From Haliotis asinina (taxonomy: Eukaryota > Mollusca > Gastropoda > Lepetellida > Haliotidae): a stretch of DNA of 64,000 nucleotides. Positions 7,511 to 37,800 of this stretch are shown here, one piece after another. Position numbers and translations under genes: made by a program. Every line of letters starts with the position of its first letter. Positions within the stretch are counted from its first letter, which is position 1. Under the pieces are notes generated by a model. It saw nothing but the letters and a program-made list of their open reading frames with translations, had not been told where the DNA came from and did not search any database. Location: assembly GCF_037392515.1 (NCBI RefSeq), contig NC_090280.1, positions 29,517,118 through 29,581,117 on the forward strand. The letters run 5' to 3'.

Positions 7511-8044
7511 GATTATTATGGTAATTCATGGTAGTTTAGATCAGTAACTTGAATTGTTAGTGGCTGTACCCTCAAAGGGGGTTGAAGTACCGTAAAATTA
7601 TTGTCCTCCTGAGAGGGTACGTAAGTCCCAAAACATTTCCTGTCCGTTTAGACTTCCACTGTTTTTAATCGTAGCATATGTCTATTTTTAAATTTTGGCT
7701 AGATGGGACTAAATTGCTAACGGCTGAGGGGACGATGTAAATCCAACTGGGGTCCATGAAGGTAGCAAAGGTACTGTAAGTCCCCATGGTCCCTAGTATG
7801 GTAATCTACCTTCAGGTGTTGGCAATCTATAGCCTGATTTTATGTTGTATTGTCCGAATAGTGATATTAGTTTTAACTTTCTACGCTAGTTTTAATTCAA
7901 ATTGTGATATCCTAGTTGTTTTACTGTCCTTCGCCGACAGATTTTATAACATACATATAGTCTTTTTCTTTGCTAAATGTTCTCGTCACAATATGGCTCA
8001 GATATTGCCGATGTGACGTTAAATATTAACTCACTCACTCACTC
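7511..8044 (+). repeat. LINE 3' UTR and ACTC-repeat tail of L2
   Basis: Reference 3' UTR of the family. Blocks in order: the CAAAGGGGGTTGAAGTACCG box, GAGAGGGTACGTAAGTCCCA, GGCTGAGGGGACGATGTAAA, GGTACTGTAAGTCCCCATGG, a TGGCAATCTATAGCC region, CTGTCCTTCGCCGACAG, and the tail ATATGGCTCAGATATTGCCG through GTGACGTTAAATATTAACTC(ACTC)n. Pieces of this sequence make up most of the other repeat fragments in the window. Confidence 0.8.
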
Positions 8045-8334
8045 CAGGGATGTTTTGGTTTGATTTTCGAGTTTGAGGACTTATTAAAGTTAATAAAATG
8101 GGTGTTATGTCGTGGAAATCAGGCAGGATGTGTGGGGACATGTATAAATGAGAGGTACGTGTGCATAGTTTTGAATGTCACCGAATTCTTAGCGTACATT
8201 TCAGCTTGAAATCGGAGCGAGTCGATGTCGGCACGATAATCCAATATGGCAGCTGCTGCTCCTTTACTCTATTACTATATATGACGTGAGTGTATATCCA
8301 TGGTCTATGTTTAACCTACAGTGCGATATCGGGT
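8045..8334. other. Unassigned intergenic DNA
   Basis: No convincing ORF or known repeat. It separates the tail of L2 from the next 3'-UTR fragment. Confidence 0.4.
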
Positions 8335-8590
8335 TCATGTGTATGGTGATCTACCTTTAGTTGTTGGCAATCTGTAGCCTGTTTTTGTATTGTATTGTCC
8401 GAATCGTGATATTCGTTTTAACTTTTCACGCTAGTTTTAATTCCATTTGTGATATTCTAGTTGTTTTACTGTCCTTTGTTGACAGTTTTTATGATATACA
8501 TATATTCCATTTCAGTGGTAAATATTCTTGTGACGATATGGCTGAAATATTGCCGAAGTGACGTTAAATATTAACTCACACACTCACTCG
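8335..8590 (+). repeat. 5'-truncated LINE 3'-UTR fragment
   Basis: Begins near TATGGTGATCTACCTTTAG and runs through CTGTCCTTTGTTGACAG to ATATGGCTGAAATATTGCCG, GTGACGTTAAATATTAACTC and an ACTC-rich tail. It contains only the last quarter kilobase of the LINE, as expected from severe 5' truncation during target-primed reverse transcription. Confidence 0.75.
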
Positions 8591-8804
8591 TCCACATTGC
8601 ATTCAGACCACCCAGCTGTTTAACATGGGTACCTGAAAAGTGTTAATCTTTGTCTTAACGTAGGGGGCTGACACGTTAAAAGAACAGCGCGTCAGATAGC
8701 CCTGTGCGAGGATTCTTAATTTAGGTCACAGACACCGTCGTTTGTTTTCTGCCATAGATTAATCGAAATTAGGCTTAGAAGTTATTGAATATGGCATCTT
8801 AGAA

Positions 8805-8963
8805 AAGAAATACAGTTCGCTCTACCACCATGTATAGTGTAATAAAGCACACTTTCGCCCTGAACTATTATAACGTTAAAGCACTCGGACGCAAGTATAA
8901 TAGTTCAGGGCGAAATAGTGCTTTATTACACTATACATGGTGGTAGAACAAACTATATTTCTT
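8805..8963. mobile_element. Fold-back (MITE-like) inverted repeat
   Basis: Two arms of about 68 bp, left about 8805-8872 and right about 8896-8963, separated by a 23-base loop. The arms are almost perfectly complementary: ACCACCATGTATAGTGTAAT on the left and its reverse complement on the right, and CGCCCTGAACTATTATA beside the loop on both sides. Only a few mismatches are visible. No ORF. A non-autonomous fold-back DNA transposon is the simplest reading; flanking target duplications are not clear. Confidence 0.75.
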
Positions 8964-8989
8964 AACTAGGGCCCGTGTAGATAACCTAA

Positions 8990-9262
8990 GTAATGGAAGT
9001 TCCTATGGTCCCTAGTATGGCGTTCTATCATTAGTTGTGGTGATCTATAGCCCATTTATATTTTTGTCTTGGTCTCATTTAATGATATCGTTTTATGATT
9101 ACCTGGAACTTTTACCTTCTCTCTGATACTATATTTTCACTGTTCTTCGTCAACATTTGTTTGGTAAATATTAATTATTGTATTATAAATGATTGTGTTC
9201 ATCACTGTATGGCTGAAACATTGCCGATGTGACAATACATACAAGTTCTCTCTCTCACTCAT
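8990..9262 (+). repeat. LINE 3'-UTR fragment
   Basis: Starts near TTCCTATGGTCCCTAGTATG, passes TGGTGATCTATAGCCC and a diverged CTGTTCTTCGTCAACA box, and ends with GTATGGCTGAAACATTGCCG and a short ACTC-type tail. More diverged than the 8335-8590 copy. Confidence 0.65.
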
Positions 9263-9319
9263 TATTTAAACTAGCACAATAATTGATTCTTAAGAATTAT
9301 GTCAAGATTATGTAACACT

Positions 9320-9395
9320 ATCCGCCATGATATTGCTGGTATATTCTGAAAGCGGCGTAAAAGACTACTCATTCATTCACTGAGGTATCTGCAGA
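9320..9395 (+). repeat. SINE tail fragment
   Basis: Tail segment GATATTGCTGGTATATTCTG followed by GCGGCGTAAAAGACTACTCA and an ATTC/ACTC microsatellite. It resembles the tail of the tRNA-derived SINE at 40165-40330 and lies in the 3' flank shared with gene copy B. Confidence 0.55.
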
Positions 9396-9865
9396 GTGTT
9401 CTGAAACAGAATCGCAATCACTGTGCCAGTGCCACAGCCCATAACACCCACAATGTTGTCTTGCTCATAACATCCACTATGTTGTCTGGGTCAGTCGTTA
9501 AGATCCAAAGATTGTCGACGGCTTCTTGACAAAGGCATGATCAATCCTAGATACTTGTTGCTATATTCTCGCATGATCGCTGCAGAGGACACCCCAACTG
9601 CGCTTCACACATAGTACCCTTTGTACCGAAACTTCTCCCACGCTCATCATTCGGCGACAATAAGTGAAGACCCAATCTGTTGATATAATGTATGTAGCTT
9701 TATAAGCACACTATTACTAGTTTTATATAACGTCAAAGATGAAATATTGCCCACGTTAGACTTTAACTATCTCACTCAACGTGAAAGCACATGTGTCTTT
9801 CTTCTTTGACTTCAATAAATCTGGACAGAAACATACCAAATCACAACCCACATGGAGATTTAATA
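9396..9865. repeat. 3' flank of gene A, inverted match to the 3' flank of gene B
   Basis: GTGCCAGTGCCACAGCCCA and the CATCCACTATGTTGTCT segment correspond, inverted, to the stretch at about 40380-40450 downstream of copy B. The same block includes a tRNA-SINE piece at about 9570-9660 with CACACATAGTACCC (the reverse of the GGTACAATGTGTGAAG type sequence). The A/B duplication therefore extended beyond the gene. Confidence 0.6.
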
Positions 9866-9868
9866 ATC

Positions 9869-9874
9869 TTTATT
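9869..9874 (-). terminator. Polyadenylation signal AATAAA of gene A
   Basis: On the minus strand AATAAA lies about 75 bases after the TAG stop of copy A. Copy B has AATAAA at the matching distance. Confidence 0.65.
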
Positions 9875-9949
9875 CCATCAATGACAGGCAGCCATCTACG
9901 AGAATTTCAGTCCTAAGATCAGCCATGTTCTGAGGATAAGTGTTTTCAC

Positions 9950-11406
9950 CTATATTTTGCCGACAATGAGGCCAACAGATGATACATGACCACCGTCGCC
10001 TTGAAAGGTCATGTTGACGTTGTTTGTTGCACGGACTTGTGATTCGTGGACCATGAACACCCACACGTTCCATTTTGTTTTTCCGTCGGTCTTCATAGAA
10101 TCAAAGAGCATGTAGCTTGATGACAGCGTGTGGCCATTGAACACAACTGCCTTCGGTTTTGCGTCAGCATTCAAATTTCTACTAACTCCCACCCTAAGAT
10201 GCGCAGAACTGTAACCAGAGCTTGGAAGACGGATGGTTGTCTGAGCATGACCATGGCTGATAGGGATGACCATGTCTTTGCCATAGTATGTGCGTTGGTT
10301 GCACGTGGGCATTCTGCCAAAGTTGTAGTTGGTTTTGAATGTGTAGAAGCATGTTGATGATCCAGGCAGACCCACGGAGCCATGATCCTTAGATATGTTG
10401 AAATGGTAGTTGAGATGAATTGCTGGATTACTGTTTTCGAAAAGAACGCATGTTCGTTCGCCTGTGGGAGGATTGATCCAGCTGTTGGAGAAGTCAAGTT
10501 GTACATTTTGCCAATTTCTATCATAGTTGTGAAGAAGAACTACCACCTCTTTGGTGAGAGGGTTTGCCAGAGCCAGGGGTGCAATTACTCTTTCTTGTCC
10601 ATTGTATTGACTTGAAACACGGAGAAACTTGTGGTTATAAACGAAGTTTGTCCAAAACGTGAAATATTTCGTCATGGTAAGAGCATGACCGTCTTTGGTA
10701 AATAAGGAATTCCTTAGGGTGGGATGACCCGGATATTGAACATTTCCGTGAAGAAAAACTAGAACTATTTCGATAAACTCCCTCAAGTTCAGGAAAGTAA
10801 ACATGAAACCGTTGGGTTGATAAATGGTCTCAAAGTCAATGATTCCATTTTCGAAACCGTCGGGAAGTCCGAAAACATTTCCTCTACCAAATTCACTGAC
10901 AACTAACGGAACATTTTTGCCTTTCTTGAGATGGGAGTAATTCTCCACCATGTCAATAGAGGCGACCAGACGAGCTTCGTTGATGCCAAAACGTGAATAG
11001 TTTCCACCTGACACCCGCAGATAATTGTAGGAATGGAAAGAGAAAAAGTCCAAATGATCAAGCGTCATGTCCATAAACTTCGCAGTTCTTTTCCAATAGC
11101 TGAAGTTATTTTCATCTGCTTGTCGCATGGCCATACTGGTGTATGTTGGTCCGGCAACTTTCATTCCAAATCGTGATTTCAGCTTCTTGGCAACAGAGTT
11201 GTGAAAATCTATATTTGTTTGTTGGTCAATAATCTTTTCGACCCAATCAGGTTCATTGATGACTTCAAATGTGTAAGGAAGGCGTCCTCCTGTGTAGTCC
11301 TTAGCACTCTGAACCATTAGCGACACAAATTCTGATGCAGCATCAACGTTGTTTGGGAACTGACCTTGATGACGTGATTTATTCATCCAGTCGGGCCAGT
11401 TCAGTC
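9950..11406 (-). CDS. Copy A exon 3 (catalytic barrel and C-terminal domains)
   Basis: 1457 bases from the acceptor TGTACAG to TAG. Contains LNWPDWMNKS, INEPDW and SEFGRG and the conserved C-terminus GHVSSVGLIVGKI. Uninterrupted. Confidence 0.85.
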
Positions 11407-14400
11407 CTGTACAAAAGAGCGTGAGAGAAACGGAAAGTCAAACATTAGTCAAACGGAGAGACAGACACTCCTGGAGTTCCTCAAGCTCTGCACATGATGA
11501 AAGTATAGGTCAGCATTGTATATAACAGCTTTGCAAAATGTTTACAAAAGAGAAATGAGAAAGTGATTCTTTAGTGAACTTTGTTGTATATTTAGTTGTG
11601 TGCATATGATAAGCATTACAAATATCTAGTACATGATGTTCATGGTCTATATAATGCTGATAAAGAGCATAGTCTTTCGTCATATTCAGTTCCATCATAC
11701 CTGCCACAATCAACCGCATATTTGATATCACTCCATTTGAACCTTGATATAGCAATTCTTAAATGCACAGGATATCCCAACACAAATATCTTTCAAAATT
11801 GAACAAAGTTTCATACTCGTTATATAATATGTATTTAAGAGATTCACTAATTGATGAGTACCAAGATTGTTGTAAGCTATCACCTAGCCTGTTTTTGAAT
11901 AGATAACAAAATATTTAACATTTCCAATTTCTTGTTTTTTTCCAAGCATAGCCAAACCCATATTGGAATAGTAAATGTCCGTTTTCAGACCCATGTATCA
12001 CAGCCAAAGCTATCTTATGCGCTCAAATTATGTGGGCGACTTTTGTATCATATCAGCCGCAGTATTGAAAACATTGAATCTAAACCTTGATATAGCAATC
12101 TAAAATGCATAGGATATCACAACGCAATGATCTTTCAACATTTAAAAAAAGTTTGATACTACTTATATAATAACCATTCCAGAGATTCGACCCGTGAAGG
12201 TCCCGGATAGAATAGGCCTTCAGCAACCCATGCTTGCCATAAAAGGCGACTAAAGTTGTCGCAAGAGGCGACTAACGGGATCGGGTGGTCAGGATTGATG
12301 ACTTGGTTGACACATGTCATTGGTTCCCAAGTGCGCAGTTTATGCTGTTGATCACTGGATTGTCTGGTCCAGACTCGACTATTTACAGACCGCCGCCATA
12401 TAGCTGAATAGTGCTGATTGCGGCGTAAAACTAAACTCACTCCCTTCACGAGATTCACTAACTGATGATTGTGCAAAGTTATCGCCTAATAAAATTACTA
12501 AACTGTCACAAAATTTTTGTACCATACAATGTGAAAATGGGCTATAGATCGCCAACAACTGAAGGTAGATCACCACACTAGGGACCATGAGAACTTAGGG
12601 GACATTGGCTTCCTGCAAGGACCCCACCCTCGTTTACTCCATCCCTTGAGCTGCAAGCAGTTTTGAAAAATCTACCCAGACATTAAAAAGACACATATTC
12701 TACGATTGAAAAAGGAAGAAGAATCTACTTTGAATGCTTTTGGACTTCAGTGTTTGTCAAGAGAACAATAATTTTACAGTACTTCAACTCCTATGTAAAA
12801 CGTTGGATCCTCACCTTTCAGTTGATATTTAGTACATCGTGTGGCCAATACGGCATTGTCGCATGATGACTTCTCCACATCTGGACTGACAACCCATGTA
12901 GGTACAACCAGTACAGTGAGTGAGTGAGTGAGTGTAGTTTTACGCCGCACTCAGCAATATTCCAGCTATATGGCGGCGGTCTGTAAATAATCGAGTCTGG
13001 ACCAGACAATCCAGTGATCAACAGCATGAGCATCTATCTGCACAATCGGGAACCGATGACATGTTTCAACCAAGTCAGCGAGCCTGACCACCCGATCCCG
13101 TTAGTCGCCTCTTACGACAAGCTGAGTCGCCTTTTATGGCAAGCATGGGTTGCTGAAAGCCTATTCTACCCCGGGCCCTTCACGGGTATAACCAGTACAG
13201 GTTTTTACTGCATGTTAATTAGTAATACCTACTTGGGTGTCTTGCACTTCCGCATGAGATCACGGATGTAGGTTTTGATGCTGGCTTTGTAATCAGAGTA
13301 TAGGCAAGTACAAGGTGTCACAGGTTGAGTGTTGCCTGAGCAGCAAGGTCGTTATTTTGTTCCCAGAAATGCCAACGTGGCTTGATAACTAACGGATGAC
13401 GATGTCGTATTGGTCAGGAGAGGGGGATCATTATACAATTAGATAATTTCTATTAAAAGTGTGTGTTTTCACTCACGATATATTTTAATCGCCTTAAGGC
13501 AAGAAAGATACTCAGAAAAGATTATTACTGTTTACACTTTGGATGTGTATTGGTCTATTTTAAGATTGTTGATATGGCGTTAACTTCAACAGTGGAAATA
13601 GAGCTGCTATCAGGCTATCGAGAAGATGTTTTCCGGATCAAATGGCAATGGCACATGCTGCAGCGCCACCATCCTTGGACCCATATGTAAATATGTAAAT
13701 AATTGCTATATCTATTTTTTAAATGATGATATTCTTGTTTATATTGTGATTTGTTAGTTTCTGATTTCTTAAAATGTACACAACGTTAGGTCAACTTGTA
13801 ACCTAACCAAATGCCAAGGAGAAGAAGAGAGAAGTCGTGAAGCAGCTGTTTTCCAGCTCAGTGCCAGCAGCAGCAATGGATATGAATGGCTTTATTCTGA
13901 GCCAAAGAGGTGGATCAAGAGATGGCATTGTGTGTTATACAAATCCACATAAAAGGATTGAAGACGCAGTTATATGCGGGGTTAGATTATTGATATGCGT
14001 ATTTCTTAAATGACTAAATTTTCTTATTTTTTTCTTTTTTTTCAGGTCAACTTGGGGCCTAAATAATAGCCAAGCTGGAGCAGAAAGAAGACAAGAAGGA
14101 GATATGTTGCCCAGCTCAGTGCCACTAGCAGCGATGAATGGCTTTATTCTGAGCCCAAGAGGTGGATCAAGAGACGGCATTTTTATGCAAGGTTAGATTT
14201 GGTAAAGTTTACTTTAGTAGTATACTGTAAAGATGATTTTAATGTGGAAGAAGTGGTTCATCTGCCTCAATGTCAGTGGGAGAAGTTCTTAAAGATCCAA
14301 GTCTTAGACCTTGCTGATGGATAGAATCTAAAATTTTAAGGTTCTTTTACTTACTCCACTATATACAATGGAGCCATAATCACGTTTGGAGCGAGTGAGA

Positions 14401-16511
14401 GATCCGTATAACTAGGGTAGTTCGATCCCTTCCCCATGTTGAATTAGAGATATATAAAGTCAAATCGTGGGGGGCAAAAATAAGACCCAGAAACTTTCAT
14501 TTAGAAATATTTCAGGGACTTTATGTGGTTTGTATTTACGGCAGAAATGTATACAATTAGTTTCGGACTTTATGCTTCAATTTAAAAGCATTTTCTAAAC
14601 ACCATTTATATATTTTGTTTAGACACATCTGAATTTGCCGTTCACTACTGTGCACATTTTACCGCGACACGAAATGTTAAAATCATCCACAAAAAAGTGA
14701 TCTATCAATTGAATTATTTATAATCTTGGATAAACTTTAGATCTTGACACTAAATAAAGTAACTTACGAAAAATACTGCCTTGTGGGACACTCTGATCCT
14801 GACTGTAATGATGGCACAGGGTAGAACCCACGCGGCCTTCAAATTGTCTGCGAAGTCGAGTAAATCTTTTCAAATGCCTTATTTCAACGTCGTGTCGTAT
14901 GATTTTTCAAGATCAAAAAGGATAAACACAACGTGTTTTGTATTAATGAGAGCGTTCTAAATAAGCTATTCCAAACGCACTAGATGATTGACAGTACTTC
15001 TATTTTTATGGAAACCACATGTATAACTGCGATAGGGTTATTTGTTTCCAAGTACAAAACAAGTCAATTATTTAGCATGCCTTCCATGGTTTTCAAACAC
15101 AGCTAGTCAACGAAATTCGGTTGAAATGTCGACGGAATCGTACGGTCACGTCCAGGTTTTCTTACTGGTAATACCACAGCGTCACACCATGAGGAATTTC
15201 CGTGACATCCGAATATCTCACAAATATGTAAAAGTGTCTCTAAACATGATTCTGGTAAGTGCTTTAAAAGTTGATATTCTATATTAGCAGCTCCAGTAGC
15301 AAATCGAACTAATGTTGTGGAACTGTTATTCCTTATTTGTCTTTGATTTATATATCTCTGAAAAATGTTTAGTCCCCTGTTTAGACATTTCCTCAACCAG
15401 TTTAATGACTTTAGATACCTCTTATGTTCCAGACCATGTTGTCAACGGCACTCCCGTAGCCATTTAATTGTCGCATATACGTCGCCCAAGTCTTCGACTG
15501 AAGTGCATGGTCCTGGAGATAGGTGGGGTCTGGGTACCCAGGGTGACTTCGACTTTCTGGCCACTGAAAATAAAATGATACATTACAGTATGGCTGTGTT
15601 AGGTCTTCCATGAATAACCTCGATAAGTGACTTCCATATTGTAATGAAGCCCATTTCGTGCGTTCCCCGTTATGATCTTGCAGGAATATTGCTAAAGGTT
15701 ACATAAAACTCCACTCACTCCATGTTGGGGTAGAATGGATATACATTGTCCAAGGTGAGGTGAAATAGGGTTAAACGTGAGACTTATGATTCTTTCGCTC
15801 ATATGACGACGTGCATGCGTGTGTATGTGTGGCTGCTTTGCACTCAAGCAGACCTAAGCTGGTTTCAAAGTGCTAGCTCACTTAGATGTCATACCTCAGT
15901 TAAGCATGAATACTCCTCACAGTCACATTATACTGAGCCAACCCATTAATTCCAAGCGCCAGGCAGGGACCAACAAGTACAATATGTCAATGTTGTTTGG
16001 TATGACGCAGCCGGGGATCGAACCGGCTACCATGTGCTCTCCAGGCAGACGCTCTACCCACTACACCACAGAGGCGGTCAGTCCAAATGTATCACAAAAT
16101 AGTTATAGGATTATATTCACCCAAACATATTTGACAATGTCAGTTAGAATAGTATGCTTCAGGCTGTTGAGAATAGAAATGGTAAGCCCTACAGTATCAC
16201 ATGAATAGCTCCTTGTCCACGGATATCATTCAATAATTAAACCATTCACCAGCATTTCTATTGCAGACCATACTTACATTAGGAAAGAGGTTGGCTCTCT
16301 GGTCTCTGTTCAGCCAACGACCAGCAGCTGTCCCGATAGATTTACATTTTGGTATTAGGTTTTCTTGCGTCAGTCCATTAAGTTTGCTCCATCTTTTAAA
16401 TTCATAGTGGACATGCCCGCCCTGGGAGAGCCACTCGTTGTAGATTGTGACGGTTGTGTAAGAGAACACCGATCCCCACAGCAACAAAGTGCACAGAACC
16501 GGTAGGAACAT
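9950..16511 (-). CDS. Secreted clan GH-A glycoside hydrolase, copy A (intact, 3 exons)
   Basis: The model joins exons 16511-16278, 15563-15419 and 11406-9950, giving 611 residues with no stop. Intron 1 is phase 0 (donor GTAAGT), intron 2 phase 1 (donor GTATCT, acceptor ending TGTACAG). The start ATG was chosen because MFLPVLCTLLLWGSVFS is a typical signal peptide; the upstream TTG codons are not needed. After the signal come an N-terminal half barrel (TIYNEWLSQGG, GRWLNRD, QWPES type exon 2) and then the catalytic segment with FEVINEPDW (Glu178, predicted acid/base) and VVSEFGRGN (Glu298, predicted nucleophile), both placed as in clan GH-A TIM barrels. The C-terminal part (about 370-611) looks like beta-sandwich domains. 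Many N-x-S/T sites fit a secreted protein. The family is possibly GH86-like, cleaving agar- or porphyran-type algal polysaccharide; this is inference. Introns carry SINE, R1 and LINE insertions. Confidence 0.82.
11407..12494. repeat. Intron 2 of copy A: 5'-side direct duplication
   Basis: Two diverged direct copies of about 150 bp, 11740-11890 and 12083-12495, both containing CCTTGATATAGCAAT, TAAATGCA(C/T)AGGATATC and GATTCACTAA(T/C)TGATGA. The second copy is interrupted by R1 at 12189-12449, so the first preserves the empty site. Confidence 0.7.
12189..12449 (+). mobile_element. R1 SINE-like element in intron 2 of copy A
   Basis: Plus-oriented R1: head CCCGTGAAGGTCCCGG, body with GCGACTAACGGGATCGGG and tail GCGGCGTAAAACTAAACTC. 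Flanked by GAGATTC at 12182-12188 and 12450-12456. The diverged direct duplicate at 11740-11890 has AGAGATTCACTAA uninterrupted, which confirms the insertion point. Confidence 0.85.
12495..15310 (-). mobile_element. Degenerate LINE in intron 2 of copy A, with nested R1
   Basis: Minus-strand LINE, same sense as gene A. From the plus-strand left: 3' UTR (12530-12800, reverse of CTACCTTCAGTTGTTGGCGA and GTACTGTAAAATTATTG), C-terminal and RNase H remnants (12800-13680 around the nested R1), two partly duplicated post-RT pieces (about 13790-13935 and 14040-14185, the latter translating as DPPLGLRIKPFIAAS), and RT remnants to about 15310. All frames are broken. The RT portion and its 5' junction are shared with intron 2 of pseudogene C, so it was already present before A and C separated. 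Confidence 0.75.
12917..13189 (-). mobile_element. R1 SINE-like element nested in the intronic LINE
   Basis: Minus-oriented R1 with the ACTC tail at the left and head ACCCGTGAAGG at the right. Flanked by AACCAGTACAG at 12906-12916 and 13190-13200; the match extends upstream with one difference. The order of events is LINE first, then R1. Confidence 0.85.
15419..15563 (-). CDS. Copy A exon 2
   Basis: 145 bases after the acceptor TTTTCAG, encoding WPESRSHPGYPDPTYLQDHA to NMVWNIR plus the first base of a split Gly codon. Length and phase are identical in B, C and D. Confidence 0.8.
15660..15735 (+). repeat. Fossil SINE tail in intron 1 of copy A, shared with B and C
   Basis: GCAGGAATATTGCTAAAGG then ACATAAAACTCCACTCACTC, opposite in sense to the gene. 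The equivalent fragment is beside exon 2 in C (about 23085-23145) and B (about 35735-35800), so it predates the split of A, B and C. Confidence 0.65.
15740..16085 (-). mobile_element. tRNA-derived SINE (family T1) in intron 1 of copy A
   Basis: Read on the minus strand: a tRNA-like head with a B-box-like GGTTCGATCCCCGGCTG segment (about 16012-16030), a body mentioning CTGCCTGGCGCTTGG, and a tail CGTCATATGAGCGAAAGAAT followed by a CACGTTTAACCC stretch and CACCTCACC. The same family occurs at 23165-23415, 36214-36565, 53900-54195 and 57630-57960. The region also gives a shadow ORF, which I do not call. Confidence 0.75.
16278..16511 (-). CDS. Copy A exon 1 (signal peptide and first barrel strand)
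   Basis: 78 codons from ATG to NLFPN, ending at the donor AAT|GTAAGTATG. Encodes MFLPVLCTLLLWGSVFS then TTVTIYNEWLSQGG, GLTQENLIPKCKSIG and AAGRWLNRD. It aligns without gaps to exon 1 of copy B. Confidence 0.82.
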
Positions 16512-19850: not shown

Positions 19851-19894
19851 CTCACATCACCGTTTACACTCATGTAATAAGGAGGCTTGTCTGT

Positions 19895-20584: not shown

Positions 20585-20730
20585 CTATACGTGTGAGTGT
20601 TGTTTCACACTCGCGGTATCATTGCAAAGGACATCCAAAATGCGCTTCACACATTGTACCCACGTGGAAATCGAACGAGGTCTTCAGCGTGACCAGTGAA
20701 CGTTTTATCCTCTTGGCTACGCTCCCGCAC
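20585..20730 (-). mobile_element. tRNA-derived SINE (family T2) truncating pseudogene C
   Basis: On the minus strand it has a B-box-like CGTTCGATTTCCACG, then GGGTACAATGTGTGAAGCGC and GGATGTCCTTTGCAATGATA. The same order occurs at 40165-40330 and 43393-43555. Homology to gene C exon 3 stops exactly at its edge. Confidence 0.65.
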
Positions 20731-21554
20731 AGAACTGTAGCCAGTGCTTGGAAGACGATTGGTTGTCTCAGCATGCCCATAGCTGATAGGGATGTCAATG
20801 TCTTTGCCATAATATGTGCGTTGGTTGCACGTGGGCATTCTGTCAAAGTTGTAGTTGGTTTTGAACGTGTAGAAGCATGTTGATGATCCATGCAGACCCA
20901 CGGAGCCACGATCCTTGAAATAGTACTTGGGATGAGTTGCTGGATTACCATTGTCTAAAAGAACGCATGTTTCTTCACCCGTGGAAGGACTGATCCAGCT
21001 GAAGTCCAGTTGTACATTTTACCATTTTATATCATAGTTGAAGAAGAACTACCACGTCTTTAGTGACAGGGTTTGCAAGGGCCAGGGGTGCAACTACTCT
21101 TTCTTGTCCATTGTATTGACTTGAAACACGAAGAAACTTGTCCTAAACGAAGTTTGTCCAAAACGTGAAATATTTCGTCATGTTAAGAGTTAGTGGTAAA
21201 TAAGGAATTCCTTAGGGTGGGAATATGACCACGGATGTTGAACAATTCCGTGAAGAAAAGCTAGAACTATGTCGATAAACTCCCTCGAGTTCAGGAAAGT
21301 AAACATGAAACCGTTGGGTTGATAAATGGTCTCAAAGTCAATCATTTCATCTTCAAAACTGAGGGAACGTCGTAGCACATTTCCTCTACCAAATTCACTG
21401 ACAACTAACGGAACATTTTTGCCTTTCTTGAGATGAGAGTAGTTCTCCACTGTTTGGGAACTAACCTTGATGATGCAACTTATTCATCCAGTCGGCCAGT
21501 TGAGTCCTGAAAAGAAGAGCAAGAGAGAAAAGCGAAAGTCAAACATTAATCTAA

Positions 21555-22775
21555 CATTTTATGGCTGCCTTTACAGGCTTCATGTGAACCATATGCAATG
21601 GAGAAGCCATAATCACGTTTGGAGCGAATACATTATCTGTACAAGTAGGGTGCTTTGATCCTGTCCCCATTTTGAATTAGAAACAACTTTCAACAAGTCG
21701 AGTGCCTTCAGTCATTTAGCCTTAAGAGATTTAATATGCGGCAAAAAGTCAAGTGGGAGTCAGAAAGAAGAACCAGAAACCAGTCTCTTTTACAAGTTTG
21801 ATAGGTGTGTGATTTAAGAATAGTTCAGGGTCTTCATGTGGTTTATATTTACCGCTAAAATATATTCAGTTAACTTTAGACTTTAAAATCTAAGACCATT
21901 TTCTAAACACCATTTATTTATTTTCTGTAGGCAGAGCTGCATTTGCCGTTCAATAGTATGCGTATTTCACCGCAACAACAAATGTTACAACGACGAAAGG
22001 TAATCCATCAACTGAATCATTTAAAACCTTTAATAAACAGTTGATCTTGATGTTAAATAAAGTAACAGACAAAAAATACTGCCTTGTGGGACACCCTGAT
22101 CCTGATTGTAATGATCACACGCGGCACAACCCTCGCGGACTTCAAATGGTCTGTCATTTTAAAAGTTGGCTACATATTGCCATGTAAATCATTTATTATT
22201 CGTATGTCATCATCGTGTCATATGCTTTATCAAGGTCAAAACAGACAGACAATCAGAGCATTTTAACAAATGGTTCCAAACGCCCAAGATGATCGACAGT
22301 ACTTCAATGTTCAAGGAAACCACATTGCATATCGCCTATAAGGTTATTTGTTTCCAGGTACGAAACAAGTTGATTTCGTACCATGCCTTCCATGACTTTG
22401 TAACTAGTCAGTGAAATCGGTTGATGGTTTGACGGATCCGTGTGATCACGTTCAGGTTCAGGTAGTGATACGCCATGAGAAAGGAAATTTCTCTGACGTC
22501 CAAATATTGTCAAAAATGTGTAAGAGCGTCTCTAAACATGATACGCGTAATCGCTTAAAGACTTGATAATGGATGTTATCATCCCCTGTAGGAAATCGAA
22601 CTAATGACATAGCTTTGGATGTTATCATCCCCTGTAGGAAATCGAACTAATGACATAGCTTTGGATGTTATCATCCCCTGTAGGAAATCGAACTAATGAC
22701 ATAGCTTTGGATGTTATCATCCCCTGTAGGAAATCGAACTAAATACATAGCTTCTTGTGCAACTGCTGTTCCTTA
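21555..22775 (-). mobile_element. LINE RT remnant in intron 2 of pseudogene C
   Basis: Matches the RT part of the LINE in intron 2 of copy A, for example AGCCATAATCACGTTTGGAG and GCCTTGTGGGACACCCTGAT read on the plus strand. Only the RT region remains. The 5' junction with host intron (CTAA(A/T)(T)ACATAG... then CTGTTCCTTAT) agrees with that in A. Confidence 0.75.
22571..22754. repeat. 46-bp tandem repeat, four units, inside the LINE remnant
   Basis: Units start at 22571, 22617, 22663 and 22709 with the core GGATGTTATCATCCCCTGTA and GGAAATCGAACTAATGACAT. The first three are essentially identical; the last diverges at its end. Copy A has a single unit at the matching place, so the expansion is private to C and recent. 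Confidence 0.88.
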
Positions 22776-23164
22776 TATGGTTTTGGTTCAGTCATCTCTA
22801 TGTAGATATTTCTTCCACCAATTTAATGACTTTAGACACCTCTTATGTTCCAGACCATGTTGTCGATGGCACTCCTGTAGCCATTTAGTTGTATCATGTA
22901 TGATGCCCAAGTCTTTGAATGAAGTGCATGGTCCTGGAGATGGGTGGGGTCTGGGTACCCAGGGTGACTTGGACTTTCTGGCCACTGAAAATCAAATAAT
23001 ACATTACTGAAAGAGTATGTGAGTTCTTCCGTTAACAACGTCGATAAGTGACTCCCATATTGTGATGAAGCTAATTTCTGATCTTGCTCGTTGTGATATT
23101 GCTGGAATTTTGCTAACAGTTGCGTAAAGCCCCACTCACTCCATATTGGGAAATGAATATACAT

Positions 23165-23415
23165 ATTCCCAGGTGAGGTGAAATGGGGTTAAAGGTCACA
23201 CGTGAGAATATCTCGCTCATATGACGACGTGCACGTGTGTGTGGCTGCTTTATACTGGCTCAGTCCTAATCTGTTTTTATACTGCTAGCTCACTGAGATG
23301 TCATACCACAATACCCCACTTAGTCACATTATACTCCGAGCCAACCACTGATGGTCAGCACCAGGCAGGGACCAACTAGTATCATATTTTACTGTCCTTT
23401 GGGCGGTCTGTTCAT
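23165..23415 (-). mobile_element. T1 SINE in intron 1 of pseudogene C
   Basis: Tail side at left (AGGTGAGGTGAAATGGGGTT, CTCATATGACGACGTGC) and body at right (GCCAACCACTGATGGTC, CACCAGGCAGGGACCAAC). The tRNA-like head is mostly lost. Equivalent to the T1 copy in intron 1 of A. Confidence 0.7.
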
Positions 23416-26296: not shown

Positions 26297-27590
26297 CGAG
26301 GGTTGGCTGAAAAGTTCTAAGCCTCAATGTGAAAACAAGTTACAAAGTCCACGTTTGTAATTTATTTTTCTACATAGTCCCCTTCCAAGTTCACACACTT
26401 TTGCCAGCGATGCTGCAAGGCCCGAATCCCGGTCAGGAAGAAATCTTCTTCAGCTACCCTAAAAAAATCAGTCACAGCGGAAATGACGTCATCATTACTT
26501 GCAAAATGGCGACCGGCGAGTTCCTTTTTCCTTTTGGGGAACAGGTGGCAGTCAGAAGGAGCCAAATCAGGTGAATAAGGAGGATGGTCAATGAGTTCAA
26601 AGCCACAATCGCGGATTGTTGACATGGCCACCACCGATTTGTGAATAGGCGCATTGTCTTGGTGGAAGAGGACACCTTTAGCGATCATCCCTTGTCGTTT
26701 GGCTTTGATTGCTTCTCGCAACTGGTTCAGTAGATCAGCATAGTATCTGCCGTTGATAGTTTGACCTTTTTCAAGATAATCAATGAGCAGAATACCCCTG
26801 GAATCCCAAAAGACTGATGCCATCACCTTTCCAGCTGAAGGAACAGACTTGGCTTTCTTCGGAGCTGGTGAATCAGGATGCTTCCACTGTTTTGACTGTA
26901 ATTTTGTTTCTGGTTGAAAGTGATGTATCCAGGTCTCATCCATGGTTACAAATCGTGCCACAAAATCATCGGGATCTGCTTCAAAACGACGCAAATTGTC
27001 AAGGGACGTCTGGAACCTGACACGTTTCTGTTCTGCTGTCAAGAGCTTTGGCACCCATCTTGCAGAAACTTTAGTCATTCCTAATTCGTTGGTGATAATA
27101 TGCTCAACCCTCTCGTGAGAGATGCCCACTACACTAGCAATATGTCGAGTAGTCAATCGTCGATCATCCATCAACATATCGAGCACTCGCGTGATGTTTT
27201 CTGGAGTGGTTGCCGTTGAAGGCCTTCCTGAGCGTGGGTCATCATCAAGGTTTTGTCTGCCACGCTTAAATTCTGCAGCCCACTTCTTTACTGTGGAAAA
27301 TGAAGGAGCATCATCCCCTAGAGTGGAAACCATGTCAGCATGTATCTGTGTTGGGGACATCCCTTTCTTTTGCAAGTATTTGATGACTGCCCTGTATTCA
27401 GTTTTGTCCATTTCTGATGATTTCAGAGGGTAGATTTACCAAAAGAGCTGTATTTGAGATAAAACTATTAGTACGTTTGTAGTTCTTGTGTCTATGATTC
27501 ACTAAATGATTGTCCTCATTGGTGGCAAACACCTGTCTCTACCTGGTGGGGAAAAAACACTCAGGCTGAGAACTTTTCAGCCAACCCTCG
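26297..27590 (-). mobile_element. Full-length mariner transposon, apparently intact
   Basis: 1294 bp with terminal inverted repeats CGAGGGTTGGCTGAAAAGTT at the left and its reverse complement at the right (27571-27590), continuing with a few mismatches to about 33 bp. The target TA is duplicated at 26295-26296 and 27591-27592. A single uninterrupted 349-codon transposase fills the interior on the minus strand. It lies at the edge of a degenerate LINE fragment. Length, TIRs, TA target and ORF fit a recent mariner insertion. Confidence 0.92.
26362..27411 (-). CDS. Mariner transposase (DD34D), intact ORF
   Basis: 349 residues, the normal mariner length, catalysing cut-and-paste transposition of its own element in the nucleus. 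The N-terminal helix-turn-helix half (about 1-115) includes FSTVKKWAAEFKRGR, DDPRSGRPS and VVGISHERVEHII. A WVPKLL motif near residue 119 stands where the family has WVPHxL. Catalytic triad: first Asp in FVTMDETWIHHF, second in LFHQDNAPIHKS, third in YSPDLAPSDCHLF, with exactly 34 residues between the second and third, so DD34D. Start ATG follows the left TIR after a short leader; the stop lies about 65 bp from the element end. No disabling change is visible, though activity cannot be judged from sequence. Unlike all LINE copies here, it has no stops. Confidence 0.93.
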   Translation of the reverse strand: MDKTEYRAVIKYLQKKGMSPTQIHADMVSTLGDDAPSFSTVKKWAAEFKRGRQNLDDDPRSGRPSTATTPENITRVLDMLMDDRRLTTRHIASVVGISHERVEHIITNELGMTKVSARWVPKLLTAEQKRVRFQTSLDNLRRFEADPDDFVARFVTMDETWIHHFQPETKLQSKQWKHPDSPAPKKAKSVPSAGKVMASVFWDSRGILLIDYLEKGQTINGRYYADLLNQLREAIKAKRQGMIAKGVLFHQDNAPIHKSVVAMSTIRDCGFELIDHPPYSPDLAPSDCHLFPKRKKELAGRHFASNDDVISAVTDFFRVAEEDFFLTGIRALQHRWQKCVNLEGDYVEK

Positions 27591-27592
27591 TA

Positions 27593-31830: not shown

Positions 31831-32955
31831 ACGATGGCGCAGTGGCTTGTGCCATTGTCATTGGAACCAGAACAATATCTTCTAGATTACCAGATAATAG
31901 TTCTATTTTTACAGCAGAAGCTAACGCGATACTCACGGCTCTTAAATATATTGAAAGACACCCTAAACATAAACAGTATATAATCTATTCCGACTCTCTT
32001 TCTTGCCTTCGGGCTATTAAAAATATTTCTTGTAAACATCCACTTCTAATTGAAATTATTGAATTGTATAATAATCTTGCTACTGGCCAGAGCGACATCG
32101 TCCTTTGTTGGTTACCCGGTCACATAGGCATTTCTGGCAACACAATGGCCGCTCTTGCTGCCAAGGCAGCACTCAACAAATCTGTGACACCACTCCTTAT
32201 TCCATACTCAGATTATAAATCCACAATAAGATCTTTTATCCGTGATCTGATGCAGAAGAAGTGGGATACCCAGGTAGGTATAAATAAATTACATGCAATA
32301 AAACCTTATATCGGTTATAGTTATTAGGGTTAAAAGAACTTTTTAATAATGTTAGCTCTCATGTAATTATTGTATTTTTAAAAGAATTAGATTTGTTAAA
32401 TGAATTGTAAATAGATAAATATTTTATTCTTGGAAGTTTGAATTAGTAACTTAGAGTGTTAGTGGCTGTATCCTCGAGGGGGGTTAAAGCACTGTAAAAT
32501 CATTGTCCTCCTGAGAGGGTACGTAAGTCCCAAAACGTTTAAAGTACATCAAAACGTTCCACTGTTTCTAATCGTAGAATACCTGTCCTTTTAATTTATG
32601 GCTAGATTTTTTGAATTGCTAACGGCTGAAGGGATGATGTAAATCCAGCTAGGTTCCATGCAGGAACCAAATGTACTGTAAGTCCCCATGGTCCCAAGTA
32701 TGGTGATCTACCTTCTGTCGTTGGTGATATATATCCCGTATTTTATATTGTGTTGTCCTAATAGTGATCTTAGTTTTAACTTTCCAGACTAGTTTTAAAT
32801 TGTAACTGTGATATTCTAGTCATTTTACTGTCCTTTGTTGACATGTTTATTTATGAAATATATTTAATCCATTTCAGTGTTAAATGTTCTCGTCACGATA
32901 TGGCTAAATATTGCCGATGTGACGTTAAATATTAACTCACTCACTCACTCACTAA
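31831..32955 (+). mobile_element. LINE copy L3b (RNase H to 3' tail)
   Basis: Begins with a second RNase H region right after the first: SSRLPDNSSIFTAEANAILT, IIYSDSLSCL and WLPGHIGISGNT lie open at 31842-32327. Then a shortened C-terminus, 3' UTR and (ACTC)n tail to about 32955. The RNase H domain thus occurs twice head to tail. Confidence 0.75.
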
Positions 32956-33786
32956 TGCAGACGAAGTGGGACGCTCAAGTGGGTGTCAACAAACTAGGTG
33001 AAATAATACCGTATGTTGGTTACACCTGGGTTGTCAACTTGTCCTCCGTTTTGTGTCCCTTGTGAGAGAGTCACAGTCAAACAACTCCTGCTTGACTGTT
33101 GAATTCTCCATCATAAGGGATAAATATTTCCATGTTAAAACTGTTAAGGATCTTTTTGATACTCTTAATTATCATTTAATTCTTTGATTTTGAAAAGAAA
33201 TTGATTTCATTAATGAAATTTGATAAATATGTTCCGTAAGTAGATGTGTTTTAATGACTGGTAGTTTTGATTAGTAACTTTGATTGTTTTTGGCTGTACC
33301 TTCAAAGGGGGTTAAAGTACCGTAAAATTATTGTCCCCATGAAAGGGTATGTAAGACCCAAACCTTTCAAAGAAAAATTGAAACATACCAAATTTTTAAC
33401 TATAGCATTTTTGTTATTTTAATTTTCGGCTAGTTTTTCCTACAGTCGCCAGTAGCTGAGGTGATGGTGGAAATCCAGCTAAGGTCCATGCAGGTAGCAA
33501 CGGCACTGTAAGTCCCCGTGGTCCCTGGTAAGGTGGTCTATCCTCAGCTGATGGCGACCAATAGACCAATTTTACATTGTTTTGTCCAAACTGATTTTTC
33601 TCCTTTAAAGATATCTGCTAGATAGTTTTAACTCAGTCTGTGATAATCTAGTGTTTTACTGTCTTTCGTCGACCGGATTTTCTATATCTTATGTCTATCG
33701 TATAAATTTAGAACTAGTTTTAGTCACGATATGGTTGAAATATTGCCGATATGACTTTAAATCTTAACTCACTCACTCACTCACGT
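32956..33786 (+). mobile_element. LINE copy L4 (C-terminus and 3' UTR)
   Basis: Starts with ATGCAGACGAAGTGGGACGC directly after the ACTC tail of L3b, keeps the GTCAAACAACTCCTGCTTGA region, the 3' UTR boxes and a pure ACTC tail at about 33768-33786. Third element in a head-to-tail series. Confidence 0.75.
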
Positions 33787-34261
33787 AAACCAAAAACACC
33801 AATGTGAGCAAGATAACAGTTCGGTGATGGCGTGTTATTGACCAGGCTGAAAACGTAATACAATCATGCGTATTCATATATTGTCAATACCACTTCAAAA
33901 TACTTTCTGGAAGTTCAAATTGAAATTTTAGTTTGTGGGCACATCCGTCTTTGCCAGCTATAATTCGTACTATTTCGCCAAATAATGTACAAAAAACAAG
34001 AGAGAGTGTCAATGTGCACGCATACAAGCATACTGTTCTATATTATTTTGGTTTTACAACTGGTTTGCATACAAATACATGAACATGTATTTATGGTGAA
34101 TTTACAACTGATTTAGCCACGATATGGTTGGAATATTGCCAATGTGGCCCAACGTTTTAACACGCTCGCTCACTCATTTATCGTGTGGAGGCTCAGGGCA
34201 TCCTGTCAACTTATACCACGTTATATACTCAAGCAGAAAATAGATTACATACATATATATA
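33787..34261. other. Spacer with a short LINE-tail fragment
   Basis: Mostly unassigned. A tail fragment GATATGGTTGGAATATTGCC with CGCTCGCTCACTC lies at about 34110-34177. The last part (CAAGCAGAAAATAGATTACA) matches sequence upstream of pseudogene C in inverted orientation. Confidence 0.45.
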
Positions 34262-34642
34262 TGACAACGAGAGCGTAGGTGAAGGGGTGGCTTGGTCTGA
34301 TACACCTCTGGTTATCAATTATTCTATCGTAGGTTATCTCACACGTTTTTACTAAACAGCACTAGCCATTTTAACATGCACATTCCTGTATAGAGGTTCA
34401 AAGGGCCCTGCCAACTAAAAACCACGTCCCATCCTGAAGCTGAAATGGATTAAGACAACGAGAGCAGAGGGAGGTTATTTGTTGGGTCTGAGGCACCGTT
34501 CGTTATCAGGTCTTCAGTCGTCTGTTAACTCACACGTTTTTACCAGACGCTGCACAAGTCATTTTCACAAGTACATTTCTGCTCTAAACTTAAAGTTTAA
34601 AGCTCGTGTTAGAGAACGAAAGAGGGATTGCACTCAAGCAGA
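34262..34642 (+). promoter_or_regulatory. Upstream region of copy B with a tandemly duplicated block
   Basis: Two blocks (about 34262-34425 and 34452-34615) share GACAACGAGAGC, TTGGTCTGA..CACC, GTTATCA, TCGT(A/C)(G/T)GTTA(T/A)CTCACACG, TTTTTAC and CATTTTAACATGCACATT / CATTTTCACAAGTACATT. Next to the ATG are TTTAAAG and CTCGTGTTAGAGAACGAAA. The nearest block is conserved in A and the pair is conserved in C, which suggests promoter function, but no factor site is assigned. Confidence 0.5.
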
Positions 34643-34876
34643 ATGTTCCTAGTGGTTCTGTGCACTTTGTTGCTGTGGGGATCGGCGTTTTCTGACACAA
34701 CCGTCACAATCTACAACGAGTGGCTCTCCCAGGGTGGGCATGTCCACAATGAATTTGCAAGATGGAGCAAAATTAATGGGCTGACACAAGAAAACCTAAT
34801 ACCCAAATGTAAATCTATCGGGACAGCTGCTGGGCGTTGGCTGAACAGAGACGAGAGTGACAACCTCTTTCCTAAT
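34643..34876 (+). CDS. Copy B exon 1
   Basis: 78 codons, ATG to NLFPN, donor AAT|GTATGT. Upstream in-frame TTG codons are ignored because the signal peptide begins at this ATG in all intact copies. Confidence 0.83.
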
Positions 34877-37800
34877 GTATGTATGACATGCAAAAGATAT
34901 ACTGGTAAATGATTTCATATTTTGATTATTGAATGATGTCACTGGACAAAGAGCCATTCATGTAATATTGCAGCCAGCGCCGGTTGTTATTGTATAGGGC
35001 CGGCAGTTCCAAATATCAGCTAGCCCAAATGACTTTCAGTAAATGATGTACCCGTGAAAGTCCCGGGGTAGAATAGGCCTTCAGCAACCCATGCTTGCCA
35101 TAAAAGGTGACTAACGGGATCGGGTGGTCAGGCTCCCTGACTTGGTTGACACATGTCATTGGTTCCCAATTGTGCAGATCAATGCTCATGTTGTTGATCA
35201 CTGGATTGTCTGGTCCAGACTCGATTATTTACAGACAGCCGCCATATAGCTGGAATATTGCTGAGTGCTGCGTAAAACTCACTCATTCAGTAAATTATCT
35301 GTCTTTTTTCAGCTTGAATATTTCCCCTATTTTTTTTTCTTTATTAACGTTCGGGAACGTTACTACTGCGCAAGTTAGGACTATAAACAGTCCCATAGTC
35401 ACTTGCACATTACAATACTGAGCTCCATCAAGTTCTTGCAAACGCCGTGCAGTGTGCTCTGTCATAAAACGTGCTCTCACAAAAGGAAATCTAGAAATCT
35501 GGAAAACGAGGTTCGGTCGCTAGAAATCTTTGACGGTCTCGTACGAACTTAATATTATATCAGTCACGTTGTTCGTTACAAAAAATACGCTTAATAAGCG
35601 CACAGTTGTAACCAGTGAGCCAGAGGCATTGTGACTCACACTCTTCACTTTCACACGAGGACATTCGCAAGGGGCTGATGAGACTAAATTTTCGGTTTGT
35701 TTATATTTATTTCACTCCAGCATGGGGTGAGTGAGTGAGGTTAACGCAGCATATATCAGTATTCTAGGAATATTCCAGCATATCACGACGGGAACAACAG
35801 AAATAAGCTTCATCACAACATGGAAGTCACTTATCGACGTTGTCAACGGAAAAACTAACACACCCATACTGTAATGTATCATTTCATTTTCAGTGGCCAG
35901 AAAGCCCAAGTCAACCTGGATACCCAGACCCCACCTATCTCCAGGACCATGCACTTCAGTCAAAGACTTGGGCATCGTATATGCAACAACTAAATGGCTA
36001 TGGGAGTGCCATCGACAACATGGTCTGGAACATAAGAGGTGTCTAAAGTCATTAAAGTTTCAGAGATAACTGAACCAAAACCAAATAAGGAACAGCAAGC
36101 TACTAATATCCCCCGTAATCTTGTACTACACCAACATACTGTACCCCTTAGATGGTATGTATGTCCCGAAACATTCGAGTAATATTTCATCTTACCTCGA
36201 TTTCAATCACAGACGACCGCCTCCGTTGTGTGGTGGGTTGAGCGTCCAACCGGAGAGCAGAAGGTCGTGGGTTCGGTCCCTGCCGCGTCATAGCTAAACA
36301 TGTTTAAGCGTACTTGTTGGTCCCTGTCTGGCTCTGGTCATTAATGAATACAACAAGGACTGGTCGGCTCGTAGTCAGTCAGTATAATATGTCTGACGGT
36401 GGAACTCATGCTTAACTGTGACATGGTATCTCACTGAGCTGGCACAAGAACACCAGTCTGGACCTGTGCAAGTAGCCACGCGCACACACACATGCACGTC
36501 GTCATATGAGCGAAATATTTATATTTTATGTGCGACGTGAAACCCCTATTTAACCTCACCTCACTTAATCGCAGAATATGCACGCTTTTGTTTATGGTTA
36601 AACGTGTCCCAAATCGCTAGCATCTAAAGGAATGGTTCCAACAGTACTGTACCTCCCCATGGTTCCAGATATGGTGATCTACCTTCAGTTGCTGGGCTTC
36701 TAGCTCTTCTTACATGTCTGCTTTACTATCCTTCGGCAACAGATTGTAACATACACCATAATTAACAAATGGCCTAGTCCAGTCACGATTTGGCTAAGAT
36801 ATTACCGATGTGACTTTATAATTACACACGCTAACTACTTCACCAACAGTCGTAAAAGTGTGTTATCTTTCGTCATTTTGAGAAGTGGTTTTATAATGGT
36901 TCCGCTGTTGAAATGATTTCCTTTTACAGGTACACAGGATTAGTTTTCACAACTAAGCTTGTCAGGAGTAAAGCCAGGACATGTCTTGCACCTCAGGCCT
37001 CTAAAGTTATGATGTCCTTAAATGAGGAAAATTAGTAACACAGTTTGAACTGATACATTTAATAGTTGTGATTCAATGGTTGTAACCTATTCTTTGTTAT
37101 GGCTCTGACATTTGGGGAACATATCATTACAGCGAGTGAGTGAGTCAGTTAATATTTAAAGTCACTTTGGCAATATATCAGCCATATCGTGACTAAAACA
37201 ATATACAGATTAACAACAATGAGCTTTAGATTATACAATTCTCTCAACGAAGGACAGTAAAATAACTAGAATACTACAGATATACGTGTAAAACTAGTTA
37301 TGAAATCTAAAACATTTCAGCTATAAGGGACAACACAATATGAAAATAGACTATAGATCATCAACAACTGATGGTAGATCACCAACATGGGGACCATGGG
37401 GACTTACAGTACGTTACTTACCTGCATGGGCCATATTTGGATTTACACCATCTCTTCAGCCGTTGGTGATTGCAAGAAATGTTAGCCTAAATTAAAATAA
37501 CAAGAAAACTACGTTTGCAAATCCTGGTAAATTTACATTGACTATGAACGTTTTGGGATTTACATTCCGTCTCCGGAGGACAATAATTTTACATTACTTC
37601 AACCCCCTTTAAGGGTACAGCCACTAAAAGTTCAAGTTCCTAATCTAAATTACCAATTATTAAAATACATCTAATTACACAACATATTACCCAGAATTCA
37701 ACAATTAAATCCATTTCCTTTAAAAACCAATAATTAAATGAGAACTGATTGTGTTAAAAAGATCCTTAACTATTTTAACATTAAAACATGCATCCCTTGT

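Follow-up and report, generated by a model that had tools for sequence, protein, structure and literature searches.

A related 3' hairpin tail in a LINE and three short retrotransposon families of Haliotis asinina

Why should one LINE (long interspersed element) and several families of short elements, lying together in a single stretch of the Haliotis asinina genome, end in related 3' tails? The stretch (the window, 64,000 nucleotides of contig NC_090280.1, here C1:29517118-29581117) contains copies of a LINE whose family encodes RNase H, of a short element, R1, and of two tRNA-like SINE (short interspersed element) families, T1 and T2. A sequence-only reading of the window had proposed that these tails align and that the LINE machinery copies the short elements. 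The four tails share one hairpin with compensatory changes in its stem, and the sequence patterns make it probable that the ORF2 (open reading frame 2) protein of a LINE lineage copies the hairpin-bearing R1 and T2 in trans, T1 being served through an older or sister LINE.

The tails are abundant in the genome (1.14 Gb searched). The exact R1 27-mer has 5983 matches, the T2 36-mer with at most one mismatch 3929, the exact LINE 34-mer 1233, and the T1 36-mer with at most two mismatches 77, while all reversed-pattern controls gave 0; the shared tails are thus not peculiar to one locus. Copies of LINE (30), R1 (30) and T1 (20) were sampled by body sequence excluding the tail, by taking the best-scoring matches, and therefore lean to near relatives of the window copies. 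The 20 T2 copies were sampled by the T2 tail, which makes the conservation of that tail circular. In these 100 tails all four types are supported as real, and the families are dispersed across many contigs, which removes the earlier impression of three families converging in one locus. The elements lie where the sequence-only reading had placed them, but the tails it quoted are composites stitched from several copies. For the LINE, the first half of the quotation is exact at 8536 and 54682, and the second at 8012, 32918 and 49536(-); for R1, the first half is exact at 35244, 12952(-) and 16665(-), and the second at 12937(-) and 5220(-). The first half for T1 is exact at 36503, and the second has no exact match (best with two mismatches, 57647, minus strand). 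The first half for T2 has no exact match in the window (one mismatch at 23095+ and 40509-), and the second is exact only within R1 copies (12420, 12937-, 5220-).

At the sequence level, the consensus tails were aligned pairwise and scored against 2000 dinucleotide shuffles. None of the shuffles scores as high as LINE-R1 (26/34 identical) or R1-T2 (40/46, the TAAAACTAA junction included), and a single one reaches R1-T1 (32/43). LINE-T1 (32/44), LINE-T2 (15/18) and T2-T1 (30/43) are reached by 9, 23 and 45 shuffles, respectively. On primary sequence alone the claimed alignment of the tails is hence firm for LINE-R1 and R1-T2. It is less so for the other pairs, and LINE-T1, LINE-T2 and T2-T1, weak at this level, are carried by the covariation of the stem. 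The terminal repeat (ACTC)n is common to LINE, R1 and T2.

Folding of the RNA, proposed earlier as a check, gives one common hairpin for the four consensus tails, with six outer pairs, a short inner stem and a nine-nucleotide loop, YGNRAUAUU, followed on the 3' side by U(U)AAA and then by the tandem repeat:

LINE: outer stem CGUCAC/GUGACG, inner stem UGGC/GCCG, loop UGAGAUAUU, 11 of 11 pairs formed
R1: outer stem CGCCGC/GCGGCG, inner stem UAGC/GCUG, loop UGKAAUAUU (third position G or U among R1 copies), 11 of 11 pairs formed
T2: outer stem CGCCGU/GCGGCG, inner stem UUGC/GCUA (one mismatch), loop UGGAAUAUU, 9 of 11 pairs formed
T1: outer stem CGUCGU/ACGACG, inner stem UGAG/CUUA, loop CGAAAUAUU, 11 of 11 pairs formed

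The consensus loops differ between families at no more than two of the nine positions. Between the LINE and each short family, two to four pairs are doubly compensated.

Covariation was measured mainly on an alignment of 59 of the 100 sampled tails (LINE 15/30, R1 19/30, T1 12/20, T2 13/20). Identical tails, the segmental copies of the window (L010, L040, L041, L047), LINE copies with the tail absent at the body match (L028, L036), L058 and L064, for which another copy in the locus was the best match, and T1 copies lacking an intact tail (L069, L072, L073, L077-L079, L087, L088) were excluded, and others were removed to thin the set. The eleven pairs are formed in 89.3% of cells (81.3 +/- 0.7 in shuffles), 81 cells with a double change still pair (20.0 +/- 8.7), and the covariation score is 0.414 (0.269); none of 500 shuffles reaches any of these values. 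With the partner strand slid by up to three columns, at most 53.6% of cells are paired and 30 double-change cells are found; this comparison favours the tested structure, which had been derived by folding these very consensus tails. RNAalifold, unprompted, returned eight pairs, all among the eleven. A second alignment has 36 rows. A third comprises 21 LINE-type tails, 20 of them taken from hits of a covariance model (CM) of the hairpin and so leaning to structure; its first pair is C-G in 8 tails, A-U in 6, U-G in 1 and unpaired in 6, and it holds 7 double-change cells, against 3.2 +/- 1.3 in shuffles (7/500 reach this).

The insertions of R1 and T2 bear marks of target-primed reverse transcription (TPRT), namely target-site duplications (TSDs), which are also seen in a few LINE copies. 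They were searched in 26 of the 30 R1 loci (L039-L041 and L047, which belong to the window or its segmental copies, were excluded) and in 16 of the 20 T2 loci (four without a head match were excluded). All 26 R1 copies have duplications of 7–15 nt; these reach at least 10 nt in 25 of them, compared with 0 of 1009 swapped-flank comparisons, in which at least 7 nt is found in 2.2%. Duplications of at least 7 nt flank 11 of the 16 T2 copies (2.5% in the control). For the LINE, duplications of 11–13 nt are present in 4 of 48 entries, with some insertions represented twice, and in 1 of 16 further entries (L141). L133 was not counted; it shares 19 nt with its upstream flank, yet this stretch lies 44 nt inside the LINE-aligned part. 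The base preceding the duplication is T in 23 of the 26 R1 copies and 8 of the 11 T2 copies, against a background of 0.32 and 0.29, respectively. Among LINE sites it is T in 3 of 5, which are too few for inferring a shared endonuclease.

Taken together, the related tails, the common compensated hairpin and the target duplications of R1 and T2 make the sharing of LINE machinery the best reading, in agreement with the earlier proposal. This does not extend to a single LINE for all families, since T1 ends in (CACCT)n instead of (ACTC)n and the tails of R1 and T2 are closer to each other than to that of the LINE.

The hairpin covariance model has 37 hits in the window at E<=1, and for 27 of these E is under 0.01. 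Rfam has no window match at the gathering threshold. The LINE copies and tails are the following:

2248..8047, plus strand: LINE copy, apparently 5'-complete (ORF domains, 5' start), split by a nested R1 (5189-5471)
2304..2366, plus strand: stretch of the LINE 5' untranslated region (UTR) homologous to R1 positions 3-64 (local score 42, shuffle maximum 33)
7983..8047, plus strand: LINE 3' hairpin (7983-8023) and (ACTC)n tail (CM 52.4 bits, E 2.3e-10; array)
8528..8589, plus strand: 5'-truncated LINE copy with hairpin tail (CM 42.4 bits; upstream 86% LINE)
32890..32950, plus strand: LINE hairpin tail; 13-nt target duplication on either side of the copy (CM 50.7 bits; TSD)
33721..33783, plus strand: LINE tail with a stem of AGTCAC/GTGACT type, first pair A-U (CM 36.8 bits; alignment, pair counts)
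37134..37195, minus strand: LINE tail with AGTCAC/GTGACT stem (CM 45.5 bits; alignment, pair counts)
49520..49580, minus strand: LINE hairpin tail, 13-nt target duplication (CM 42.7 bits; TSD)
60191..60253, plus strand: LINE hairpin tail, 13-nt target duplication (CM 55.8 bits; TSD)

The 5' start GGCACCCATGAAG is found at 2248 and in copy L028. The family encodes an endonuclease (PF03372, ORF 3512-4027), a reverse transcriptase (RVT_1, PF00078, ORF 5440-6795) and RNase H in separate ORFs. RNase H (PF00075) was taken from a related copy (58899-59699), where it is above the Pfam cut-off, and is below it in ORF 6931-7320 of the 2248-8047 copy. An RNase H domain places a LINE family in the I superfamily, and the window LINE is thus an RNase-H-bearing, I-superfamily non-LTR (non-long-terminal-repeat) retrotransposon. 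On contig C6, at 42.28-42.69 Mb, at least 17 RNase-H matches are found in ~0.4 Mb among the matches listed, at least 10 of them in uninterrupted frames of 1253 amino acids; these form a cluster of near-identical LINE ORFs that may be tandem copies.

R1 is ~265 nt long and occurs five times in the window:

5189..5471, minus strand: R1 nested in the LINE; hairpin 5221-5262, (ACTC)7 (CM 59.8 bits)
12918..13188, minus strand: R1; hairpin 12938-12979 (CM 61.7 bits), query for the genome-wide copies
12190..12442, plus strand: R1; hairpin 12390-12430 (CM 40.2 bits)
35050..35284, plus strand: R1; hairpin 35236-35277 (CM 40.6 bits)
260..521, minus strand: R1, outside the region noted earlier; hairpin 272-313 (CM 63.5 bits)

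Its positions 3-64 match the LINE 5' UTR at 2304-2366 with a local score of 42 (at most 33 in 1000 shuffles), the match starting ~56 nt inside the 5' start of the LINE; similar sequence is present at a second LINE 5' end, in L028. Positions 81-170 have no match to the LINE above the shuffle range. R1, earlier taken for a classical SINE, is not one: with a head homologous to the LINE 5' UTR it looks like a short element derived from the LINE at both ends. A tRNA head was considered for R1 and rejected, as no B box is seen and the head matches the LINE 5' UTR. The head also carries a 22-nt tandem duplication of a GCTTGTCGTAAGAGGCGACT-like motif (Tandem Repeats Finder arrays at 436, 5386, 13103 and 37971), which is single in the LINE 5' UTR.

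T1 and T2 are SINEs with tRNA-like heads, of some 330–350 nt and ~155 nt, ending in (CACCT)n and (ACTC)n, respectively. A B box, GGTTCGAtyCC, and an A-box-like tagTGGtta can be read directly in both consensus sequences. ARAGORN makes no call for either head at its default threshold; relaxed, it calls Ser for T1 and Asp for T2, and also Met for R1, so that the relaxed threshold does not discriminate. The window contains these T1 elements and T2-type tails:

36215..36565, plus strand: T1, tRNA-like SINE; hairpin 36496-36542 with internal insertion, CACCT-type end (CM 41.0 bits)
23189..23230, minus strand: T1 hairpin tail (CM 36.9 bits; upstream 71% T1)
57649..57690, minus strand: T1 hairpin tail (CM 33.1 bits; upstream 71% T1)
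53901..53939, minus strand: T1 hairpin tail (CM 30.2 bits; upstream 79% T1)
23088..23141, plus strand: T2-type tail within the duplicated gene cluster, with paralogues at 15667 and 35740 (CM E 5.5e-4); tail only, no T2 body match
15667..15720, plus strand: T2-type tail, paralogous with 23088 (CM E 0.033); tail only
35729..35791, minus strand: degenerate T2-type tail, a paralogue of that at 23088 (CM E 0.21, by itself not significant); tail only

The limits first given to T2 in the window could not be kept, as the part upstream of the tail at 35740-35791 is not dispersed. For the supposed body at 35810-36056 there are 55 matches, every one of them on contig C1 (20.28-20.39, 29.08-29.73 and 35.22-35.28 Mb); it was dropped because these are confined to the local gene cluster or its C1 copies.

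How specific is the hairpin, and is there a LINE with exactly the tail of R1 or T2? Among the best 150 of 4297 RNase-H candidates, 19 were hand-picked for variety and their 3' regions examined with the covariance model. Five (L118-L122) give strong hits; by eye they share the ORF2 C-terminus with the window LINE and end in (ACTC)n. Two (L116, L117) match weakly (E 0.074), and the other 12 have no match at E<=1. L116 (1468-1529) and L117 (1471-1531) end in a different hairpin, CGTCGGC...GCCGACG, that is CGTCGGC...GCCGACGTTAAA, followed by TTAAA and (AACTG)n. The GACGTTAAA of their end is identical to that in LINE and T1. These ends hint, on sequence grounds, at a wider family of such LINE 3' ends. 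Upstream sequence was classified for 62 hairpin hits (31 of the 37 in the window and 31 of 112 others, mostly outside the known sampled copies). Among tail-sampled copies, exact R1 27-mers are preceded by an R1 body in 27 of 28 cases (unrelated sequence in one, L161), and T2 tails by a T2 body in 20 of 20. No LINE with an exact R1 or T2 tail is common, although a LINE accounting for as much as roughly a tenth of these tails might have escaped the sampling. Searches for such a LINE by exclusion patterns gave 49 and 91 places, which were judged by eye to be SINE copies, shifted or truncated, and duplicates of local origin; the patterns required six upstream letters unlike those of R1 or T2, which a LINE with fixed upstream sequence passes in ~18% of cases, so that these searches carry little weight. 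The window LINE has the nearest LINE tail to R1 and T2 known here.

The following course of events is proposed. The LINE RNA would end in a recognition hairpin followed by (ACTC)n, and the ORF2 protein of the window LINE or of a close sister would bind this hairpin, nick the target and reverse-transcribe from the RNA 3' end by TPRT. R1 and T2, bearing the same hairpin and repeat, would be copied by that machinery. T1, with more diverged copies, a (CACCT)n end and a diverged hairpin, would probably depend on an older or sister LINE. What is recognised may be mainly the loop and the presence of a stem, in which case paired changes could accumulate in the stems with the loop kept. We infer protein-RNA binding, mobilisation in trans and the assignment of a LINE to each family from these patterns. 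A stronger version, in which three non-autonomous families whose promoters are unrelated (tRNA-like in two, a LINE 5' UTR in one) all depend on one lineage of RNase-H LINE enzymes, and this reads the tail by the loop YGNRAUAUU and the shape of the stem but not by the letters of the stem, thereby extending the zebrafish rule (below) to a distant clade, is put forward tentatively and seems rather less probable than not.

A number of results weigh against copying by the LINE machinery. In T2 two of the eleven pairs are broken, one of them in the inner stem, which is left with two pairs. Only six distinct pairs are independently compensated among the four families, and the fold energies of the consensus tails are modest (z -1.3 to -2.2). 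In the 59-tail alignment there is no excess in the number of pairs with a double change (7 vs 5.2 +/- 1.1; 52/500 shuffles reach it) or in further pair types (18 vs 17.9; 317/500). Within the LINE-type tails the first pair is unformed in 6 of 21, and double changes occur in two pairs only, which 130 of 500 shuffles reach. Body upstream was not recognised for 16 of the 62 classified hairpin hits, and 8 of the 20 sampled T1 copies lack an intact tail. A LINE with an exact R1 or T2 tail is absent among the 28 and 20 tail-sampled copies. The likeness between R1 and T2 is far above that of either to the LINE, and the terminal repeat of T1 differs. Finally, a target duplication is seen in 5 of 64 LINE entries, most copies extending beyond the sequence examined.

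Of the alternative explanations, the strongest is that every short family is paired with a LINE of its own, these LINEs belonging to sister lineages that share an ancestral hairpin, and that the window LINE serves itself, the similarity being due to common descent of LINE 3' ends. Its chance of being right falls a little below even; it overlaps with copying by the LINE machinery as proposed above, which allows a sister LINE, and the two are not exclusive. The stems and post-stem sequences of R1 and T2, which are unlike those of the LINE, and the (CACCT)n end of T1 speak for it, as does the RNase-H LINE of L116 and L117, whose different hairpin indicates that hairpins diversify with the LINE lineage. 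However, no R1- or T2-tailed LINE was found among the 28 and 20 tail-sampled copies, the 19 RNase-H LINEs or the covariance-model hits classified as LINE, all small samples.

Somewhat less likely is that one of R1 and T2 took its tail from a LINE and that the two then exchanged tails, through template switching or recombination; this is compatible with copying by the LINE machinery. It would account for the 40 of 46 identical positions and the shared TAAAACTAA junction, but leaves unexplained the LINE and T1 versions, with the same loop and stem geometry. Chance or low-complexity convergence of AT-rich ends beside a microsatellite is very improbable: the LINE-T2 and T2-T1 alignments reached by 23 and 45 of the 2000 shuffles, the modest single-sequence folds and the two of five covariation measures without excess would suit it, but neither the 500 shuffles nor any slid version match the paired cells, double-change cells and covariation score, none of the 2000 shuffles scores as high as LINE-R1 or R1-T2, and 14 of the 19 other RNase-H LINE ends give no strong hit. 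Nested insertion or segmental duplication within a repeat-rich gene cluster is hardly credible as the source of the shared tails, for although the region is duplicated and its three T2-type tails (15667, 23088 and 35740) seem to descend from a single old insertion that was copied with it, the families lie on many contigs and target duplications flank R1 and T2 copies individually.

The hairpin can be compared with known systems. In the zebrafish ZfL2 LINEs, replacement of the loop is described as causing a dramatic drop in retrotransposition, the ORF2 protein recognising the loop specifically; the stem could be replaced with the loop kept, retrotransposition being retained (in ZfL2-1 at about half the rate), whereas a disrupted stem abolishes it in ZfL2-2 (PMC4176376). 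A near-constant loop with a covarying stem across the LINE and three short families is what this rule predicts. UnaL2/UnaSINE of eel and ZfL2-1/ZfL2-2 of zebrafish are described, like the elements here, with a shared stem-loop 3' tail and a short terminal repeat. Ohshima 2013 counts 58 SINEs with LINE tails, with CR1 and RTE predominating, and its table has as sole protostome row Gecko, with I-clade LINEs of Aedes (PMC3747384). LINE/SINE pairs of the stringent type, as described there, are mostly of CR1 or RTE, whereas the present LINE has RNase H and is known from its sequence alone. Bov-A2, RTESINE1, MAR4 and RTE1-N1_LA are given as combining, like R1, a LINE 5' end and a LINE 3' tail without a tRNA head, but derive from RTE/BovB, whereas R1 resembles an RNase-H LINE (PMC3747384). 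In molluscs, Nimb (Nimbus) and Ingi are listed as the sole I-superfamily LINEs, beside an unknown clade in O. sinensis, and a donor LINE is named for three of eight bivalve SINE families (PMC10294476). Nimb, Ingi and the window LINE are all of the I superfamily.

Partner LINEs are seldom known for mollusc SINEs. One genome with four families, near-identical loops and covarying stems makes the tail rule testable on an RNase-H LINE, the stem and loop swaps having already been made by evolution; so far the rule has been assayed in zebrafish L2-clade LINEs. Mollusc tRNA-headed SINEs and short elements derived from LINE 5' ends, with bodies or tails in common among them in gastropods and bivalves, were reportedly described by Matetovici et al. 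2016, Luchetti et al. 2016 (RUDI) and Nishihara et al. 2016 (MetaSINEs), and Matetovici et al. are said to have found that mollusc short elements share bodies and tails in a mosaic way. T1, T2 or R1 may be among the elements already described in 2016. The four tail strings do not occur in the literature text searched, though the pairing may nonetheless be in print. LINE/SINE tail sharing, a form of parasitism on the LINE's copying enzyme, being long established, what is worth keeping is that the stems covary among four families in a system built on an RNase-H-type LINE.

The window also holds other features. Two ORFs (38286-39794 and 51819-53273, both on the plus strand) contain the C-terminal domain of beta-porphyranase (PF18040), which belongs to enzymes for seaweed polysaccharides and is here part of an animal genome, and similar DNA lies at 9950-11437 and 20647-21018 on the minus strand, as duplicated genes. 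Matches of this gene cluster on C1 are found near 20.3, 29.1-29.7 and 35.2 Mb. An uninterrupted mariner-type transposase frame of 357 codons (Transposase_1, HTH_48) occupies 26362-27435 on the minus strand, and a 46-bp unit is repeated in four near-perfect copies (98%) at 22570-22753.

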